The notes under the pieces: model-generated | Told to the model about the DNA's origin: nothing | The model's input: only the letters and a program-made list of their open reading frames with translations | The model's database searches: none | Made by a program: the position numbers and the translations under genes | Part shown: positions 28,938-47,660 of the stretch, piece after piece | How the letters are laid out: each line of letters begins with the position of its first letter | Numbering within the stretch: position 1 is the stretch's first letter | Assembly: GCF_900100255.1 (NCBI RefSeq) | Contig: NZ_FMTS01000001.1 | Coordinates: 930,001 to 994,000 of the forward strand | Length of the DNA: 64,000 nt | Source of the DNA: Asticcacaulis taihuensis | GTDB taxonomy: Bacteria > Pseudomonadota > Alphaproteobacteria > Caulobacterales > Caulobacteraceae | Direction: 5' to 3'

Positions 28938-28949
28938 CCGCCTCTCTTA

Positions 28950-29015
28950 TACCTCCCCAGTTTGACTGGGGAGGGGGACCGCGCCGCTCTTGCGGCGTGG
29001 TGGTGGGATTTCTTG
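28950..29015 (+). repeat. Interspersed hairpin repeat, copy 1
   Basis: The first stem is CCTCCCC...GGGGAGG, then GGGGACC, then a second stem (CGCCGC...GCGGCG), then GTGGTGGGATTTCTT. The same bipartite structure recurs at 31268, 32235, 32323, 33716, 33798, 47491, 47576, 61209 and 61292. Confidence 0.85.
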
Positions 29016-29092
29016 ATTTCTTAAACTTCCCTATGGCCTTTATCACCAAGGGCGTTTAAACAGCCCGGCCCTTCTCCCCAAAGGTCGCGCCC

Positions 29093-30968: not shown

Positions 30969-31271
30969 ATGGCTATCGATACCAAAATCAGCAAGCAGGA
31001 CTCCGATGCGCTCGCCGAAGCGCTGCTTGGCCTGGAAACGATCGAGGAGGTGAAAGCCTTTCTCGATGACCTGTGCACGCCTTCCGAAATGCGGGCCTTC
31101 GCCGAGCGCTTCAAGGTGGCGCGCCTGCTCGATGAAGGCCAGTTGTCGTACCGCGAGATTTCCGAGCGCACCGGCGCCAGCACCACCACCGTCACCCGTG
31201 TGGCGCGGTTCCTCCGAGAAATGCCGCATCAGGGTTACCGGCGCGTGCTGGACCGGATGAAGACGAAGTAA
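30969..31271 (+). CDS. TrpR-family regulator (YerC/YecD type), probable histidine operon regulator
   Basis: A 100-residue protein from ATG 30969 (a GTG nine bases earlier is also possible). ALLGLETIEEVKAFLDDLCTPSEMRAFAERFKVA and the helix-turn-helix YREISERTGASTTTVTRVARF define the YerC/YecD branch of the TrpR superfamily. It is the first gene of the his cluster; hisG starts 77 bp after its stop codon. YerC-like proteins have been proposed as HisR repressors of histidine synthesis in Firmicutes. The location here supports the same job (inference). A palindrome upstream is a candidate binding site. Confidence 0.88.
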   Translation: MAIDTKISKQDSDALAEALLGLETIEEVKAFLDDLCTPSEMRAFAERFKVARLLDEGQLSYREISERTGASTTTVTRVARFLREMPHQGYRRVLDRMKTK

Positions 31272-31340
31272 GAACCCCACCACCCCGCCGCAAGCGCGGG
31301 GCAGTCCCCCTCCCCATCAAGATGGGGAGGTATAAGAAGA
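31268..31340 (-). repeat. Interspersed hairpin repeat, copy 2 (inverse orientation)
   Basis: This copy begins at the stop codon of the TrpR-like gene and ends close to the hisG start: AGAACCCCACCACC, then a stem CCGC...GCGG, then CCCCCTCCCC...GGGGAGG TATAAG. It therefore fills the regulator-hisG junction. Confidence 0.85.
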
Positions 31341-31348
31341 AGACCATT

Positions 31349-32230
31349 ATGACTGATCGTCGTTTACGCATTGCTGTTCAAAAATCCGGCCGTTTGGCGG
31401 ATCGCTCCGGCGAGCTGATTTCCGGCGCGGGCCTGCGCATCCTCAAGGGCGCCAACGAACTGCTGTATCGCATTGAGAACCAGCCAATCGACCTGCTGCG
31501 CGTGCGTGATGATGACATCCCCACCTTCGTGGCCGATGGCGTCGCCGAACTGGGCATCGTCGGCTACAATGTCCTGGCCGAGCACTTTCCGGACCGCGAT
31601 CTGGAAGAGATGATCGTCCAGCGCCTGGGCTTTGGTTCCTGCACGCTGAAAGTCGCTGTGCCGAACGATGTCGATTACACCGGTCCGCAATGGCTGGAAG
31701 GCAAGCGTATCGCTACCTCCTACCCCAATATTCTGGGCAAATGGTTGAAGGATAATGGCGTCACGGCCGAGATAGTTGAAATGCGCGGCGCCGTCGAAGT
31801 GGCCCCGCGCATGAAGATCGCTCACGCCATCTGCGATCTGGTCTCGACCGGCGCGACCCTCGAAGCCAACGGCATGAAGGCGACCGATCTGGTGCTGAAA
31901 TCCGAGGCCGTGCTGATCAAGGCGCCACATGCCCCGCCCTCGGAACTGGCCCATACCTATGACATGCTGCTGCGCCGCTTCGATGGCGTGACCGCCTCCA
32001 CCGGCGCCAAGTACGTCATGATGAACGCCCCGAAGACGCATCTTGACGAGATCATCCGCATGATCCCCGGCGCCGATGCCCCGACGATCATGCAACTGGC
32101 CGGACGCGAGGACACGGTCGCCGTCCATGCGGTCTGCCAGGAAAACGTGTTCTGGGACACCCTGGACAAGCTGAAAGCGGCCGGCGCCTCGGCGATCCTG
32201 GTCCTGCCTATTGAAAAGATGATGAAATAG
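31349..32230 (+). CDS. hisG: ATP phosphoribosyltransferase, long form
   Basis: A 293-residue enzyme that joins ATP and PRPP in the first step of histidine synthesis. The N-terminal RLRIAVQKSGRLADRS and IDLLRVRDDDIP, the GKRIATSYPNIL segment, and the PRPP loop ICDLVSTGATLEANG near residue 170 are clear. The ~75-residue C-terminal regulatory domain is present, so this is the long, HisZ-independent form, as in enterics. Many alphaproteobacteria instead have a short HisG plus HisZ. The start at ATG 31349 was chosen by alignment of TDRRLRIAVQKSGRL with family N termini. Confidence 0.97.
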   Translation: MTDRRLRIAVQKSGRLADRSGELISGAGLRILKGANELLYRIENQPIDLLRVRDDDIPTFVADGVAELGIVGYNVLAEHFPDRDLEEMIVQRLGFGSCTLKVAVPNDVDYTGPQWLEGKRIATSYPNILGKWLKDNGVTAEIVEMRGAVEVAPRMKIAHAICDLVSTGATLEANGMKATDLVLKSEAVLIKAPHAPPSELAHTYDMLLRRFDGVTASTGAKYVMMNAPKTHLDEIIRMIPGADAPTIMQLAGREDTVAVHAVCQENVFWDTLDKLKAAGASAILVLPIEKMMK

Positions 32231-32234
32231 AAAA

Positions 32235-32305
32235 GTAAGAAACCCCACCACCACGCCGCAAGAGCGGCGCGGTCCCCCTCCCCATCGAAGATGGGGAGGT
32301 ATAAA
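32235..32305 (-). repeat. Interspersed hairpin repeat, copy 3
   Basis: This copy is in inverse orientation, directly after the hisG stop codon: AGTAAGAAACCCCACC, stem CGCCGC...GCGGCG, CCCCCTCCCC...GGGGAGG TATAA. It is paired back-to-back with copy 4. Confidence 0.88.
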
Positions 32306-32322
32306 AAGAGGCAATTCTCTTG

Positions 32323-32396
32323 TACCTCCCCGACTTGTTCGGGGAGGGGGACCATCGAACGCAGTGAAGATGGTGGTGGGGTTTCTTGCTTTCTTT
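32323..32396 (+). repeat. Interspersed hairpin repeat, copy 4
   Basis: TACCTCCCC...GGGGAGG, GGGGACCATC, then a second stem (CATC...GATG) and GGTGGTGGGGTTTCTTGC, ending 10 bp before the hisD ATG. Together with copy 3 it forms a large inverted structure filling the hisG-hisD gap. Confidence 0.88.
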
Positions 32397-32406
32397 GGTG
32401 AAAAAC

Positions 32407-33705
32407 ATGAAGACCTTTGTCTGGAAAAATCTGAACGCCGCCGAACGCAAGGCAGCCCTGGCCCGGCCGGAAAACCGCCGCGATGCGCGCGTGGTCGAGA
32501 CCGTGCGCACTATCTTTGACGACGTAGATGCGCGCGGCTTCGCCGCCGTCTCCGACTGGTCGGTCAAGCTCGATGGCCACGCCCCGCGTTATGTGAAGCT
32601 CGACAGCGCCACGGTCGATGCCGCACGCTCAAGCCTGGCCGCCGAAGACCTGGCCGCCATGGAGCTGGCGGTCGAAAACGTCCGCGCCTTCCAGCAAGCC
32701 GAACTGCCGACCAATGGCCCCCTGATTGCGCCAAAGCCGGGCTTAAGCCTGCAACGCGTCTATCGCCCGATCACCACCGCCGGTCTCTATATTCCGGGCG
32801 GCACCGCGCCACTGTTCTCGACCCTGATCATGACCGCCGTGCCCGCGCTCGTGGCCGGTGTGCCCAACCGCGTCTGCGTCATGCCGCCGGCGCGCGATGG
32901 CTCAATCCACCCCATGATGATCGCCACGGCGGCCGCTTCCGGATTAGCAGACATGTGGCTGGTTGGTGGCGCGCACGCCATTGCCGGTCTGGCGCTCGGC
33001 GCTTTTGATAATAGCCCCCCTGCCGACAAGCTGTTCGGCCCTGGCAACAAATATGTCGCCGAGGCCAAGCGCCTGGCCACCGAACGCGTCTCCGGCCTCG
33101 CCATCGACATGCCGGCCGGCCCTTCGGAACTGCTGGTCATCGCCGACGACACCGCCCATGTGAAACTGGTGGCTGCCGACCTGTTATCACAGGCCGAGCA
33201 CGACGCTGATGCCCAGGTCATCCTCGTCGCCCTGTCCGCCGATATCACCGCGAAGATCGATGCCGAAGTCGAGGTGCAGGTGTCGCGCCTGCCGCGCGAA
33301 ACCATTGCCCGCGCCTCGCTGGAACAGGCCCGCCTGTTCGTCGTGTCATCGCTCGAAGAAGCCGCCGAGGTTTCCAATCTCTACGGCCCGGAACACCTGG
33401 CGATCCAGGTCGCCGATGTCGACGCCCTGATCCCGCAACTGACCGCCGCCGGCACCATCTTCGCCGGCACCTATGCGGCGGAAACCTTCGGCGACTATGC
33501 CGCCGGCCCCAGCCACGTCCTGCCGACCGATGGCGCCGCCCGCGCCTGGGATGGCATCACCGTCCGGTCTTTCCTGACCAGCTTTGTCGTCCAGAAGGCG
33601 ACCCGCGAAGGCGCCGCCGCCATCGCGCCCGCCGCCGCCCGCCTCGCCCGCCTCGAAGGTCTCGAAGCCCACGCACTTGCGGCGGATTTCAGGCTGGAGA
33701 TTTGA
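32407..33705 (+). CDS. hisD: Histidinol dehydrogenase
   Basis: A 432-residue zinc enzyme that oxidises histidinol to histidine in the last two steps of the pathway. Clear signatures are RVYRPITTAGLYIPGGTAPL, WLVGGAHAIAGLALG, KLFGPGNKYVAEAK, AIDMPAGPSELLVIAD, the catalytic region LLSQAEHDADAQ and LYGPEHLAIQ. ATG 32407 matches usual family N termini. The ribosome site is poor because the repeat element ends just upstream. Confidence 0.97.
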   Translation: MKTFVWKNLNAAERKAALARPENRRDARVVETVRTIFDDVDARGFAAVSDWSVKLDGHAPRYVKLDSATVDAARSSLAAEDLAAMELAVENVRAFQQAELPTNGPLIAPKPGLSLQRVYRPITTAGLYIPGGTAPLFSTLIMTAVPALVAGVPNRVCVMPPARDGSIHPMMIATAAASGLADMWLVGGAHAIAGLALGAFDNSPPADKLFGPGNKYVAEAKRLATERVSGLAIDMPAGPSELLVIADDTAHVKLVAADLLSQAEHDADAQVILVALSADITAKIDAEVEVQVSRLPRETIARASLEQARLFVVSSLEEAAEVSNLYGPEHLAIQVADVDALIPQLTAAGTIFAGTYAAETFGDYAAGPSHVLPTDGAARAWDGITVRSFLTSFVVQKATREGAAAIAPAAARLARLEGLEAHALAADFRLEI

Positions 33706-33715
33706 GATGTTTAAA

Positions 33716-33785
33716 GTAAGAACCCCCACCACCATTTCGCTACGCTCATGGTCCCCCTCCCCGACAAGTCGGGGAGGTATAAGAA
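33716..33785 (-). repeat. Interspersed hairpin repeat, copy 5
   Basis: This copy starts ten bases after the hisD stop codon: AGTAAGAACCCCCACCACC, a second-stem region, then CCCCCTCCCCGAC...GTCGGGGAGG TATAAG. It is paired back-to-back with copy 6. Confidence 0.88.
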
Positions 33786-33797
33786 AATATATCCTAT

Positions 33798-33870
33798 CAT
33801 ACCTCCCCATCTCCGATGGGGAGGGGGACCGCGCGCCTCTTAGCGCGGGGTGGTGGGGCATCTTACTTTC
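33798..33870 (+). repeat. Interspersed hairpin repeat, copy 6
   Basis: TACCTCCCCATC...GATGGGGAGG, GGGGACC, second stem GCGC...GCGC, then GGGTGGTGGGGCATCTTAC. It ends 30 bp before the hisC*-hisB start and, with copy 5, fills the hisD-hisC*B gap. Confidence 0.88.
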
Positions 33871-33899: not shown

Positions 33900-35384
33900 A
33901 TGTTTAATTCGCCCTTCTCTTCCCTGAACGCTTCCGGTTCCGGACTGGAATCCCTGCCGCCGTCGCTGGAACCGTTGCGCGAACGCATGGCCGATTATTA
34001 CGGCGTCGAGGCGCACCAATTGATGGTGACGCGTGGCGCCTCGCACGGCATGGAAATTCTGATGCGTCGCCTACGCGTCCACGGCCACGAGTTCCTGTGG
34101 GCCGGTGCCGACCATTATCTCGAAGACCTGTGCGGGGTCTACAATCTGACCATCCGCAAGCCGCCGGAAAACGGTCCCTATGCCAAGGGGGGCGGCTTCT
34201 GCCTGGTCCACAATCCGCGTCAGACCGATGGCAAGGCGTGGGATATTACCGCCGCGCGCGCCCTGGCGGTCGATCTTTTCCCCACTCTGCTGGTGATCGA
34301 CGAAAGCTATTTCGACGCCTGCACGGCCACCTCCATGGTCGAACTGGCCACCGTCGAGCCCAATGTGGTGGTGCTGAAAAGCCTGTCCTATCTCTTCGGC
34401 ATGGCCGGTGCCCGCGTCGGCGCTCTGATCGCCAATACCAAGACCCTTCAGGGCCTGCTGAAATTCTGCGAACCGCACCCCCTGCCGACGCCAAGCGTGC
34501 GCGCCGCCGAGGCAGCTCTTTCGCCATCGCGGGCGCTGACCCTGCAATCGCGCGTCGATCTGATCCGAACCGAACAGGCCCGCGTGCGCGAAGCGCTGTC
34601 ACGATCGAAGCAACTTGAGAGTTTCGACCTCAATGATGGCCCCTTCATGCTGTTGCGTCCCAAGGCCCTGCTGCAAACCCAGACGGCGCTCAAACGACTG
34701 GGCCTGAGCCCGCAAGTGACGCCAACCGGCCTGCTGTTGGCCCTTGGGGATGTTGCCACCAATAACCGCATCCTGCGCGCGCTCGATGTGGCCCCGGCGG
34801 ACAAGGCCCCGCGCGTCGGCGAAATCCTGCGCGACACCAAAGAAACCAAGATCTCGGTGCAGGTCAATCTCGACCAGCCCAAGCCGGTCAAGGTCCATAC
34901 CGGCGTCGGTTTCTTCGATCACATGCTCGACCAGGTGGCGACGCACGGCGGCTTCTCGCTGCAACTGGCCTGCGAGGGCGACCTTGAAATCGACGCTCAC
35001 CACACGGTGGAAGACTGTATGCTGGCCTTCGGTCAGGCGCTGAAAATCGCCCTCGGTGATCGCGTCGGCATGGCGCGCTTCGGCTTTGTGCTGCCGATGG
35101 ATGAAACGGAGGCCAAGGTCTCGATTGATCTGGGCGGCCGGCCATTCTGCGTCTTCAAGGGCGAGTTCCAGTCCACCCATATCGGTGATTATCAGACTGA
35201 GATGACGGCGCACGCCTTCCGCTCGCTGTCGGAAACCCTGGGGGCATCAATCCATGTCGAAGTCAGTGGCGGCAATGATCACCACAAGACGGAAGCTTGT
35301 TTCAAGGCGCTCGGTCGTGCCCTGCGCCAGGCGACGCGCATCGAAGGCGATGCCCTGCCCTCCACCAAGGGGATGCTCGCTTGA
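33900..35384 (+). CDS. hisB: Degenerate HisC-like aminotransferase domain fused to imidazoleglycerol-phosphate dehydratase (HisB)
   Basis: A 494-residue fusion. Residues ~302-494 are a complete HisB dehydratase: RDTKETKISVQVNLD, GVGFFDHMLDQVATHGGF, DAHHTVEDC and GGNDHHKTEACFKALGRAL carry the expected metal-binding His and Glu residues. Residues 1-~300 align with E. coli-type HisC (VTRGASHGMEILMRR for RGADEGIE; VIDESYF; FGMAGARVGALIAN; PLPTPSVRAAEAALSP). At the PLP-lysine position LSKAF reads LSYLF (Tyr164), the NPNNPTG loop reads NPRQTDG, the C-terminal substrate Arg is missing, and the first ~50 residues of HisC are absent. The aminotransferase half is therefore probably inactive. Start: ATG 33900; the frame upstream is repeat sequence. 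Confidence 0.92.
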   Translation: MFNSPFSSLNASGSGLESLPPSLEPLRERMADYYGVEAHQLMVTRGASHGMEILMRRLRVHGHEFLWAGADHYLEDLCGVYNLTIRKPPENGPYAKGGGFCLVHNPRQTDGKAWDITAARALAVDLFPTLLVIDESYFDACTATSMVELATVEPNVVVLKSLSYLFGMAGARVGALIANTKTLQGLLKFCEPHPLPTPSVRAAEAALSPSRALTLQSRVDLIRTEQARVREALSRSKQLESFDLNDGPFMLLRPKALLQTQTALKRLGLSPQVTPTGLLLALGDVATNNRILRALDVAPADKAPRVGEILRDTKETKISVQVNLDQPKPVKVHTGVGFFDHMLDQVATHGGFSLQLACEGDLEIDAHHTVEDCMLAFGQALKIALGDRVGMARFGFVLPMDETEAKVSIDLGGRPFCVFKGEFQSTHIGDYQTEMTAHAFRSLSETLGASIHVEVSGGNDHHKTEACFKALGRALRQATRIEGDALPSTKGMLA

Positions 35385-35428: not shown

Positions 35429-36034
35429 ATGACCGGCAACGGCACTGAAATCATTGTTATAGAAATAGGCTGCGCGAACACCGCCTCCGTTCTCTTCGCG
35501 CTGGAACGTCTGGGCGCAGAAGCCCGCCTCAGTTCCGATCCGGCGGAGATCGCGGCCGCCAGCAAGGTCGTCCTGCCCGGCGTCGGCGCGGCGGGCTTTG
35601 CCATGGCGCGCATCCATGAGCTGGGTCTGTTCGATACCATTCGCGGCCTGAAAGTGCCCCTGCTCGGCGTCTGCCTCGGCCAGCAACTGCTGTTTGAAGG
35701 TTCCGAAGAAGGCGATGTCTCGTGCCTCGGCCTGATCCCCGGTCGCGTGACCAAAATGACCGCCACGCCGGATATGGTCGTACCGCATATGGGCTGGAAC
35801 CAATTGGAAGTTCTTAAAGCCGATCCGCTGACCGCTGGCGTGACAAATGGGGACTTCGCTTATTTCGTCCACAGCTATGTCTGTCCGGTCAATAAGTACA
35901 CACTGGCGACCAGCACCTATGGCCAACCGTTTGCCGCCATGGTGCGCAAGGGCAATGTGTTCGGCTGCCAGTTTCACCCCGAACGCTCCTCCGCCGTCGG
36001 CGCCCAGATTTTGAAGAATTTTGTAAGCCTATGA
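35429..36034 (+). CDS. hisH: Imidazole glycerol phosphate synthase, glutamine amidotransferase subunit
   Basis: A 201-residue class I amidotransferase that supplies ammonia to HisF. The nucleophile is in LLGVCLGQQLLFEGSEEG, and the His-Glu pair in GCQFHPERSSAVGAQILKNF. The N-terminal loop reads IEIGCANTASV, like the enteric DTGCANLNSV, rather than the DYGxGN loop usual in alphaproteobacteria; PHMGWN and FVHSYVCPVN are also enteric-like. ATG 35429 gives a normal length. An in-frame TTG at 35381 overlapping the hisB stop is an alternative that would add 16 residues. Confidence 0.95.
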   Translation: MTGNGTEIIVIEIGCANTASVLFALERLGAEARLSSDPAEIAAASKVVLPGVGAAGFAMARIHELGLFDTIRGLKVPLLGVCLGQQLLFEGSEEGDVSCLGLIPGRVTKMTATPDMVVPHMGWNQLEVLKADPLTAGVTNGDFAYFVHSYVCPVNKYTLATSTYGQPFAAMVRKGNVFGCQFHPERSSAVGAQILKNFVSL

Positions 36035-36762
36035 TCCTTTACCCCGCCATCGACCTGATCAACGGTGAATGCGTCCGTCTGGCGCAGGGCCGCTTCGACG
36101 CCGTGACGAAATACGATTCCGACCCGTTCAAGCGCCTGGCCCTGTTCAATGAAGAATTCGCGCAATGGGTCCATATCGTCGATCTCGACGGCGCCAAGGC
36201 CGGCTCCCCGCAACAACATGAACTGATCGGTCAACTGGCCAAGGCTTCGCGCGCTAAGATCCAGACTGGCGGCGGCGTACGTACCCGCGAACACGTCCAA
36301 ACCCTGCTTGACCAGGGCGTTTCGGCCGTCGTGGTCGGCTCGGCGGCAGTAAAAAATCCGGAAGAGGTGCGCGGCTGGCTGCGCGATTTCGGCAAGGACC
36401 GCATTACGCTGGCGCTCGATGTGCTCCCAACGAAAGATGGCGATTTCGATGCCGCCCTGCATGGCTGGGTCGAAGGTTCCGGCATTTCGCTGTGGGACGT
36501 GCTCGACTATTATCCCTTCGGCGTGGCCCAGCGCATTCTGGTTACTGATGTATCGCGCGACGGGATGCTGATGGGCCCGAACATGGACCTGATGAAGGCC
36601 CTGCGCAAAAAGCGCCCCGATCTCGAAATACAGGCCTCCGGCGGCGTGAAATCCGTGGAAGACCTTTATGATTTGAAGGCCCTGGGTGTCCATGGCGCCA
36701 TTGTCGGCAAAGCCATCTACGAAGGTATCATCGACTTAAAGGCTGCTCTAAATGTTGGCTAG
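36031..36762 (+). CDS. hisA: ProFAR isomerase (phosphoribosylformimino-AICAR-P isomerase)
   Basis: A 243-residue beta/alpha barrel. Phosphate-binding and catalytic signatures are [20 protein letters not shown] with the catalytic Asp near residue 8, [30 protein letters not shown] with the second catalytic Asp, and [12 protein letters not shown]. It overlaps hisH by four bases and hisF by 11 bases, so translation is coupled through this part of the operon. Confidence 0.96.
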
Positions 36763-37519
36763 ACGCATTATCCCCTGCCTCGATGTCAAGGACGGCAAGG
36801 TCGTCAAGGGCGTGCAGTTTGTCGGCCATGAAATCCTCGGTGACGCCGTCGACATGGCCCTGCGTTATCGTGACGAAGGCGCCGATGAACTGGTGCTGTA
36901 TGACATAACCGCCTCCGCTGAAGGCCGCACAGTTGATTACAACTGGGTGCGTGATATCGCCCGTGCGCTCGATATTCCGTTCTGCGTGGCGGGTGGCATC
37001 CGTTCAGCCGAACAGGCGGTGATGTGCCTGAACAGCGGCGCCGACAAGGTGTCGATCAATTCGCCCGCCCTGGAGCGTCCGGACCTGATCAACGAACTGG
37101 CCGAAATGGCCGGCTCGCAGTGCGTGGTCGTCGGCATCGACAGCCGCGAAATGGACAACGATTACTATGTCCACCAGTATTCCGGCGATCCGGACAAAAT
37201 TCGTCAGGTGGGTCGCCGCACGCTTGACTGGGTCGTCGAAGCGAAGACCCGCGGTGCTGGCGAAATCGTTCTTAACTGCATGAATCAGGACGGCGTGCGT
37301 AAGGGCTATGATATCAAACAGTTACGGCTGGTTCGTGATCTGATAGATATACCGCTGGTGGCGTCCGGCGGCGCCGGTGCGCCCGAGCATTTCGAGGCCG
37401 TCTTCGAGCAGGCCGATGTGTCCGGAGCGCTTGCCGCCAGCGTGTTCCACAAGAAAATCATTGCCATACCGGACCTGAAGCGTGATCTTCGCGCCGCCGG
37501 AATTGCCGTACGGATCTGA
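36752..37519 (+). CDS. hisF: Imidazole glycerol phosphate synthase, cyclase subunit
   Basis: A 255-residue barrel enzyme that, with HisH, makes imidazole glycerol phosphate and [25 protein letters not shown] with catalytic Asp11, [32 protein letters not shown] with the following [12 protein letters not shown], and [17 protein letters not shown] are all clear. The [12 protein letters not shown] stretch resembles enteric GVQFRNHEIIGD rather than the GVNFxxLRDAGD form of most alphaproteobacteria. The start lies inside the last codons of hisA. Confidence 0.97.
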
Positions 37520-37520
37520 T

Positions 37521-38165
37521 ATGCCCGAAGCCCACAAACTGCCCAATCCGCTCACCGTCGCCGATATCGACCAAATCGACTTCGCCAAGGGCGGCGGCCT
37601 CGTGCCTGCTGTAGTGCAGGACGCTGACACCCTCCAGGTGCTTCTGCTCGGCTATATGAACGTCGAAGCCCTGAAAGCCACCCTGCAGGGCGGGCTCGTC
37701 ACCTTCTGGTCGCGCTCGAAGAACCGCCTGTGGAAGAAGGGCGAGACCTCCGGCGACACGCTAGAACTCGACCGCATCCTGACCGATTGCGACGAGGACG
37801 CCCTGCTCGTCTATGCCCGTCCGAACGGACCGACCTGCCACACGAAAACGACCTCCTGCTTCGGCCACGAAGACGCGCCCGGCATCGGCTTCATGGGCCA
37901 CCTGGCGCATGTGGTGCAGGACCGCGCCAAGGCGCCGCCGGCCGACAGCTACACCGCCCGCCTGATGCACAAAGGCGTGGCCAAGATTGCCCAGAAGGTT
38001 GGCGAGGAAGGTCTGGAAACAGCACTTGCCGGACGCGCCGGCGATCTTGATGAACTGCACAATGAAGCCGCCGACCTGCTTTATCACCTGTCGGTGCTGC
38101 TGATGGCGCGCGACACCAAGCTTGAAAACGTTTTGGATATCCTGCGGGAGCGTCACAAAGGCTGA
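37521..38165 (+). CDS. hisI: Bifunctional phosphoribosyl-AMP cyclohydrolase/phosphoribosyl-ATP pyrophosphatase
   Basis: A 214-residue HisI-HisE fusion catalysing the second and third steps of histidine synthesis. The HisI half (residues ~25-120) has LLGYMNVEALKATL, FWSRSKNRLWKKGETSGD and the metal-binding GPTCHTKTTSCF. The HisE half (~125-214) has GVAKIAQKVGEEGLETALA and NEAADLLYHLSVLL. ATG 37521 is one base after the hisF stop. Alphaproteobacteria usually encode the two activities separately. A 6-bp perfect hairpin (GATCAC/GTGATC, 38172-38190) lies just after the stop and may help end the operon, though no T-run follows. Confidence 0.96.
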   Translation: MPEAHKLPNPLTVADIDQIDFAKGGGLVPAVVQDADTLQVLLLGYMNVEALKATLQGGLVTFWSRSKNRLWKKGETSGDTLELDRILTDCDEDALLVYARPNGPTCHTKTTSCFGHEDAPGIGFMGHLAHVVQDRAKAPPADSYTARLMHKGVAKIAQKVGEEGLETALAGRAGDLDELHNEAADLLYHLSVLLMARDTKLENVLDILRERHKG

Positions 38166-47445: not shown

Positions 47446-47490
47446 GAGTGCAGGATAGAGCGCACGGCATAAGAAATCAGCGTGGAGTGA

Positions 47491-47559
47491 AGTAAGACAC
47501 CCCACCACCATCTTCGCTTCGCTTTATGGTCCCCCCTCCCCGACAAGCGGGGAGGAACA
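47491..47559 (-). repeat. Interspersed hairpin repeat, copy 7
   Basis: AGTAAGACACCCCACCACC, a second-stem region, then CCCCCCTCCCC...GGGGAGG. It is in inverse orientation, paired back-to-back with copy 8, between the small membrane protein gene and rodA. Confidence 0.85.
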
Positions 47560-47575
47560 AGAACAAAGGCGCTTC

Positions 47576-47660
47576 ACCTGCTCCTCCCCGCTTGTCGGGG
47601 AGGGGGACCGCACGAGCCCGCGCAGCGGCGAGATGTGGTAGTGGGGTTTCTGACTTGTTA
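47576..47660 (+). repeat. Interspersed hairpin repeat, copy 8
   Basis: CTCCTCCCCGC...GCGGGGAGG-like stem (CCCCGCTTGTCGGGG), GGGGACCGC, second stem, then GTAGTGGGGTTTCTGAC. It lies just downstream of the minus-strand rodA stop, where it may also act as a transcript end. Confidence 0.85.

Follow-up and report, generated by a model that had tools for sequence, protein, structure and literature searches.

The his operon of Asticcacaulis taihuensis raises the question why its gene for imidazoleglycerol-phosphate dehydratase (HisB) encodes, in the same frame and ahead of the dehydratase, a HisC-like aminotransferase domain without the PLP-binding lysine. We analysed a window of 64,000 nucleotides around this gene, i.e. 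the whole stretch of DNA from positions 930,001 to 994,000 of contig NZ_FMTS01000001.1, and all positions given below are counted from its first letter. The window contains a compact operon in the order hisG-hisD-[hisC'-hisB]-hisH-hisA-hisF-hisIE, composed of the following features:

31322 to 32230, plus strand: hisG, long form with HisG_C
32407 to 33705, plus strand: hisD
33900 to 35384, plus strand: fusion gene (pseudo-HisC and HisB), open frame of 494 amino acids
33900 to 34799, plus strand: pseudo-HisC domain, residues 1–300, predicted PLP aminotransferase fold that lacks both the lysine and the N-terminal arm
34800 to 35384, plus strand: HisB (imidazoleglycerol-phosphate dehydratase) domain, residues 301–494 and stop codon, with a full IGPD match at residues 334–475
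35429 to 36034, plus strand: hisH
36031 to 36762, plus strand: hisA
36752 to 37519, plus strand: hisF
37524 to 38165, plus strand: hisIE (PRA-CH and PRA-PH domains)

The same his gene order is known from E. coli, according to the available part of Fani et al. 2007 (PMC1963479).

The initial annotation had described one continuous frame for a HisC-like domain and then HisB, and the frame from 33900 to 35384 is indeed open, with Pfam matches of its product to Aminotran_1_2 (60 bits, residues 101–257) and then to IGPD (190 bits, residues 334–475). An ATG is present at the place equivalent to the start codon at 33900 in all 24 Asticcacaulis relatives, and the frame extends upstream to a further ATG at 33816, which lies within an interspersed palindromic element. 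This element of about 160 bases was observed, whole or in half, ahead of hisG (31266–31340), in the gap between hisG and hisD (32232–32392), in the gap between hisD and the fusion gene (33713–33869) and at other places of the window (28940–29022 and 47490–47656).

The HisB half contains a complete IGPD domain. The IGPD match covers positions 1–144 of the 144 positions of PF00475, and the score against model NF002111 is 239.9 bits, above the cut-off of 231. The half contains HHTVED and DHHKTE, corresponding to the HHxxED and DHHKxE patterns which we take to be the metal-binding motifs of HisB, and their His and Glu columns show no variation across an alignment of 59 fusions. The fusion is also the only IGPD match of the genome. 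A HAD phosphatase domain ahead of IGPD was absent from the fusion protein, Pfam giving Aminotran_1_2 alone in that part.

The pseudo-HisC half reached only 95.6 bits against the HisC model TIGR01141, far below the cut-off of 276.55. Its predicted structure still has the fold of a type I PLP aminotransferase: the AlphaFold2 model of the fusion protein (mean pLDDT 85.4) gave a HisC as the top Foldseek match, with a TM score of 0.75 over the target for 1gew, and matches to IGPD structures in its second half. For the predicted structure of a Brevundimonas relative, the corresponding TM score to 1gew was 0.73 over the target. The alignments used with the structure comprised 59 (A2) and 44 (A3) of 77 fusions. 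The sites of the former active center are located as follows:

34032 to 34046, plus strand: R45-G-A-S-H49, phosphate-cup segment (RGADE in E. coli-type HisC)
34212 to 34232, plus strand: NPRQTDG, residues 105–111, altered NPNNPTG loop
34299 to 34310, plus strand: D134-E-S-Y137, cofactor Asp-Tyr pair
34380 to 34388, plus strand: S161-L-S163, directly ahead of the lost lysine
34389 to 34391, plus strand: TAT codon for Tyr164, which the alignment to 1fg3 puts at Lys214 of E. coli HisC
34413 to 34415, plus strand: R172, aligned to E. coli HisC Arg222
34734 to 34736, plus strand: Leu279, an arginine in Brevundimonas and in the active fusions checked

The predicted structure bore out the conserved fold core, and alignment to E. 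coli HisC (1fg3) the tyrosine claimed at the site of the PLP lysine. A gapless HMMER block places D134, Y137, S161, S163, Y164 and R172 at E. coli positions 184, 187, 211, 213, 214 and 222, and because this block puts residue 164 at 214, Tyr164 occupies the place of the Schiff-base lysine. The segments RGASHGME and NPRQTDG, residues D134, Y137 and R172 and the leucine at 279 were likewise found as annotated; positions 19, 107 and 279 were aligned by eye or by MAFFT. The extent of the N-terminal loss needed correction from about 50 to about 37 residues, since residue 26 aligns to residue 63 of E. coli HisC and an intact relative (L057) begins 36 residues earlier. The domain thus shares with HisC its fold and the equivalents of Asp184, Thr/Ser211, Ser213 and Arg222, but differs in lacking the lysine, the N-terminal arm and the equivalent of Asn157 and in its score below the cut-off. 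By sequence, a complete HisC active site is absent from the A. taihuensis fusion.

To follow the fusion through the family, we searched 249 genomes of Caulobacteraceae, 237 of them with a HisB match, and found it in 77 of these 237. Together with the match of the fold to HisC structures, this recurrence goes well beyond chance. It occurs in 24 of 25 Asticcacaulis genomes, the exception (G153, 87% complete) having no HisB match, and in 52 of 56 Brevundimonas genomes, where the remaining four lack a HisB match as well. The other genera of the family were surveyed for fused frames by a search with the N-terminal domain and gave weak matches (E about 1e-11 to 1e-12). The dead fusions number 76, with 24 from Asticcacaulis, 51 from Brevundimonas and one from another genus (G009); G009 and G092 were excluded from the per-genus counts. 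The lysine is absent from all 76. An error in the sequencing or assembly of a single strain can practically be dismissed as the cause, as the same loss is present in separate assemblies of 24 Asticcacaulis and 51 Brevundimonas genomes. The initial annotation had suggested surveying relatives for the same fusion and the same tyrosine, and the tyrosine recurs only in part: residue 164 is Tyr in 11 and Phe in 13 Asticcacaulis fusions, Leu in 49, Met in two and Lys in one of the Brevundimonas fusions, and Leu in G009. In the 76 dead fusions, the lysine is replaced by hydrophobic or aromatic residues (Leu, Phe, Tyr, Met), and the Asn loop is altered or gone. The sole Lys at this site is that of Brevundimonas G092, where a complete fused HisC (288.4 bits, above the cut-off) is accompanied by a separate HisC; this fusion (L057:2539-4182) lies in the same operon order. 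The four Brevundimonas genomes without a HisB match (G083, G135, G173 and G209, listed as 100% complete) have kept a HisC beside chorismate mutase and are likely histidine auxotrophs.

The initial annotation had proposed that the aminotransferase and the histidinol-phosphate phosphatase are both encoded elsewhere, and both were found in the genome of A. taihuensis. A separate true HisC (294.8 bits vs. a cut-off of 276.55) is located on another contig directly after a chorismate mutase gene, and a HisN-type phosphatase of the inositol-monophosphatase type scores 292.4 bits (cut-off 275.15). Each of the 75 dead-fusion genomes of Asticcacaulis and Brevundimonas contains a separate HisC above the cut-off. 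Such a HisC adjoins chorismate mutase in A. taihuensis and at 10 of the 11 further loci inspected, which include those of G009, G068 and G239 (with dead fusions) and the four Brevundimonas genomes without a HisB match; the one locus lacking the neighbor is that of the second HisC of G009. Because of this neighborhood, which persists even in genomes without a HisB match, the separate HisC seems to have a role beyond histidine synthesis, presumably in the transamination of aromatic compounds, as HisC enzymes are broad in specificity. With such a second enzyme at hand, the fused HisC would be dispensable. That the fused domain is still an enzyme, either with other chemistry or with a lysine supplied from elsewhere, would agree with the retained equivalents of Asp184, Thr/Ser211, Ser213 and Arg222, but we consider this highly improbable given the replacement of the lysine in every dead fusion, the changed or missing Asn loop, the missing N-terminal arm and the separate HisC in all 75 genomes.

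Fusions with an intact HisC half indicate that the fusion is old and that its ancestor had two working halves. A search of 385 alphaproteobacterial genomes resulted in 16 matches, eight of which are intact fusions outside Caulobacteraceae (G364, G469, G460, G380, G549, G466, G626 and G554). Not counted as intact were three dead fusions (G000, G002 and G024), G335, which looks like a fusion split across two contig ends, G333 (see below), and G267, G398 and G484, which match the HisC part only. A ninth intact fusion was found in another family of the same order (G960) and six further ones in Sphingomonas or Sphingosinicella, resulting in 16 intact fusions with that of G092 included. They have the same domain order as the dead fusions and, where the flanks were read, the same operon order, but differ in their complete HisC half. 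In 13 of the 16 genomes, no match to the HisC model besides the fused one was obtained at E <= 1e-40, whereas G092, G460 and G554 have a second HisC. In those 13 genomes the fused HisC is, as judged from its being alone, very likely the working enzyme.

The order of events was traced with trees of both halves, each including 7 of the 24 Asticcacaulis and 13 of the 51 dead Brevundimonas fusions. In the HisC-domain tree (53 rows, G009 excluded), the 20 dead domains cluster as a single clade (100/100) with the intact fusions of sphingomonads and G092 as neighbors (95/84), and the fused HisC domains group together with the HisC of G880 to the exclusion of the separate HisC (100/98); the dead clade sits on a long stem (0.99), and a program warning flagged long branches and unusual composition in other rows. 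The HisB tree (60 rows) separates the genera cleanly, but its deep forks are weakly supported (44/77), and the single origin therefore rests on the HisC-domain tree. Because the dead domains form one clade beside intact fusions, the loss occurred once in these two genera and after the fusion. The G092 fusion groups with sphingomonads in the HisC-domain tree (98/78) and outside the dead Brevundimonas clade in the HisB tree; it may be a retained ancestor or a horizontal replacement from a sphingomonad. The best HisB matches listed outside Caulobacterales belong to genomes of the same phylum but not of the same class, mostly as frames of about 360 residues, the size of HisNB, with 50–59% identity; these are presumably gammaproteobacterial HisNB proteins. 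Frames of the size of stand-alone HisB reach 42–51% identity among the matches listed. G880, one of the genomes with a frame of HisNB size, has a separate hisC and a hisB frame of 362 amino acids in the same operon order.

The initial annotation had argued from the intact frame that the dead domain is not decaying. The frame itself is no proof of function, because a stop or frameshift would also abolish the only HisB of the genome, which is read through it; the conclusion as such held when substitution rates were compared (pairwise Nei-Gojobori estimates from non-independent pairs). In 21 Asticcacaulis pairs with dS of 0.1–0.5, the dead domain showed a median dN/dS of 0.030 (maximum 0.090) and HisB one of 0.047, the dead domain being higher in 10 of the 21 pairs. 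In 175 Brevundimonas pairs, the medians were 0.167 for the dead domain vs. 0.041 for HisB, with the dead domain higher in 174. At larger dS, dN/dS increased in both domains, probably by saturation. The ratios indicate purifying selection on the dead domain, strong in Asticcacaulis and weaker yet clear in Brevundimonas. Plain pseudogene decay is rejected by these values together with the conserved residues. Between the two genera, the dead domain is only 33.5% identical, as opposed to 66% for HisB, while the active fused HisC of G092 and of six sphingomonads share 52–56% at 67–71% HisB identity. Judging from these comparisons, fast change in the dead domain preceded its present constraint.

Some fusions are eroded further. 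G009, from a third genus of Caulobacteraceae, contains a shortened dead domain (L085:2746-3993) in which about 70 residues of the large domain are gone and R172 is changed to Pro; one of its two separate HisC is encoded behind hisIE. In the dead fusion of L031, G46, H49, Y137 and R172 are all changed. G333, from another alphaproteobacterial family, carries a remnant of about 200 residues ahead of HisB (L268:6143-6706 and the preceding frame), whose end can still be matched to that of the L057 HisC half; the single HisC match of G333 scores 272.1 bits, just below the cut-off, and lies about 30 kb from the his operon. This remnant likely means that a fused HisC died a second time, independently. 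Since HisB is retained in G009, L031 and G333 alike, the whole domain is not always needed.

These data bear on the possibility that the dead half is useless to HisB, with selection preventing only its misfolding and in-frame deletions slowly eroding it. With HisB read through such a half, no simple stop or frameshift could eliminate it. The in-frame erosion in G009 and G333, each with a separate HisC, as well as the fast divergence between the genera speak for such a fate. However, the domain is as constrained as HisB in close Asticcacaulis pairs, and invariance in 74 to 76 of the 76 dead fusions extends beyond the core to polar residues of the former active site. We therefore regard a mere passenger as unlikely and rank it third among the explanations.

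The retained polar residues are those of the old cofactor cup. R45, D134, S161 and S163 are present in all 76 dead fusions and G46, H49 and R172 in 74; in HisC, such residues hold the phosphate and the ring nitrogen of PLP. His49 is derived in both genera, as the active fused relatives have Asp or Glu at this position. Beyond the cup, the genera differ. The annotated loss of the substrate arginine and retention of the Asp-Tyr pair hold for Asticcacaulis, which has also lost the Tyr55 equivalent, whereas Brevundimonas keeps the equivalents of Tyr55 (49/51) and of the substrate Arg335 (50/51) and has mostly lost the tyrosine of the pair (Tyr187). Of 12 hand-picked pocket sites, five do not vary in either genus or between them, compared with 53 of 299 sites overall, a weak result (permutation p 0.04).

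These residues make it conceivable that the domain serves as a ligand sensor, its phosphate cup binding histidinol phosphate, imidazole-acetol phosphate or PLP/PMP and thereby tuning HisB, in a manner resembling that of HisZ with HisG. The near-invariant cup with its derived His49 would suit such a role, as would the Tyr55 and Arg335 equivalents of Brevundimonas and the excess of invariant pocket sites. On the other hand, the parts of the pocket that are kept differ between the genera, the conserved residues may be structural, and HisB is kept although R172 is lost in L031 and G009 and most of the domain in G333. Such losses would not be expected of an indispensable sensor and point to gradual erosion in some lineages. 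We rank the sensor second and put it forward only tentatively; somewhat more speculative is its specific form, a fused allosteric sensor whose cup, with His49 and a hydrophobic plug replacing the lysine, would bind a late-pathway phosphate (histidinol phosphate or imidazole-acetol phosphate) or PLP and set the rate of HisB. A former enzyme would then sense the substrate or cofactor that it once used, as a receptor acting on HisB, the step just ahead of HisC.

We judge it most likely, at about even chances, that the protein is a former HisC-HisB enzyme whose dead half is kept as a non-catalytic structural module of HisB. It started from a bifunctional enzyme within a compact his operon, whose HisC half may have become redundant in the ancestor shared by Asticcacaulis and Brevundimonas, where a second HisC-type aminotransferase would have been present. 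The fused half then lost the lysine, the N-terminal arm and the Asn loop, as comparison with the intact proteins shows, and the folded remainder may have been retained as a built-in module on which HisB relies to fold, assemble or remain stable; the old cup may still hold a phosphorylated ligand. A structural module agrees with the lysine loss throughout a single clade, the low dN/dS in Asticcacaulis and the HisC fold predicted in both genera, and the redundancy is reflected by the fused HisC being alone in 13 of 16 intact cases vs. a separate HisC in 75 of 75 dead ones. Several points weigh against it: the N-terminal domain of Brevundimonas evolves faster than HisB, the domain is eroded or altered in G009, L031 and G333, the constraint may reflect mere avoidance of misfolding, and the near-invariant cup exceeds the needs of a pure scaffold. 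In either role, as module or as sensor, the conservation suggests that the dead HisC half probably helps or controls the working HisB half.

Dead relatives of enzymes are known as partner or regulatory subunits. Examples are HisZ, which is related to histidyl-tRNA synthetase but catalytically dead and serves HisG, and LCB1/SPTLC1, a subunit of serine palmitoyltransferase that has the PLP fold but lacks the lysine. These are separate subunits, whereas the dead domain described here is fused, has a different enzyme as its partner, and its role is putative. The bifunctional HisNB (E. coli HisB, PRK05446) carries its additional domain at the same end, and its HisB domain is nearest to ours among the matches listed, but that additional domain is a HAD phosphatase instead of a dead aminotransferase. 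The fusions thus represent a living series from two separate enzymes via an active HisC-HisB fusion and a dead, guarded domain to eroded remnants, in which the death of the fused half is tied to a second copy of its activity. They also offer a simple and harmless system for testing whether dead domains are scaffolds, sensors or simply unlosable, and caution that a HisC-like match in these operons does not indicate a working HisC.

A HisC-HisB fusion or a dead HisC domain was not described in the literature searched, although subscription journals or databases may contain one. The available part of Fani et al. 2007 (PMC1963479) lists five his fusions (hisA/hisF, hisIE, hisHF, hisNB and hisIED) without naming hisC, and hisC is not among the seven his genes with fusions in the accessible text of a 2023 review (PMC10138114). 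The accessible sections of PMC9045160 do not mention a HisC-HisB fusion, and "hisC-hisB" in those of PMC6432763 is operon notation. HisC-HisB fusions were also observed in two metagenome-assembled genomes of Actinomycetes (L175 and L185, outside the count of 16 intact fusions); they are distant from the alphaproteobacterial ones in both trees and perhaps arose independently.
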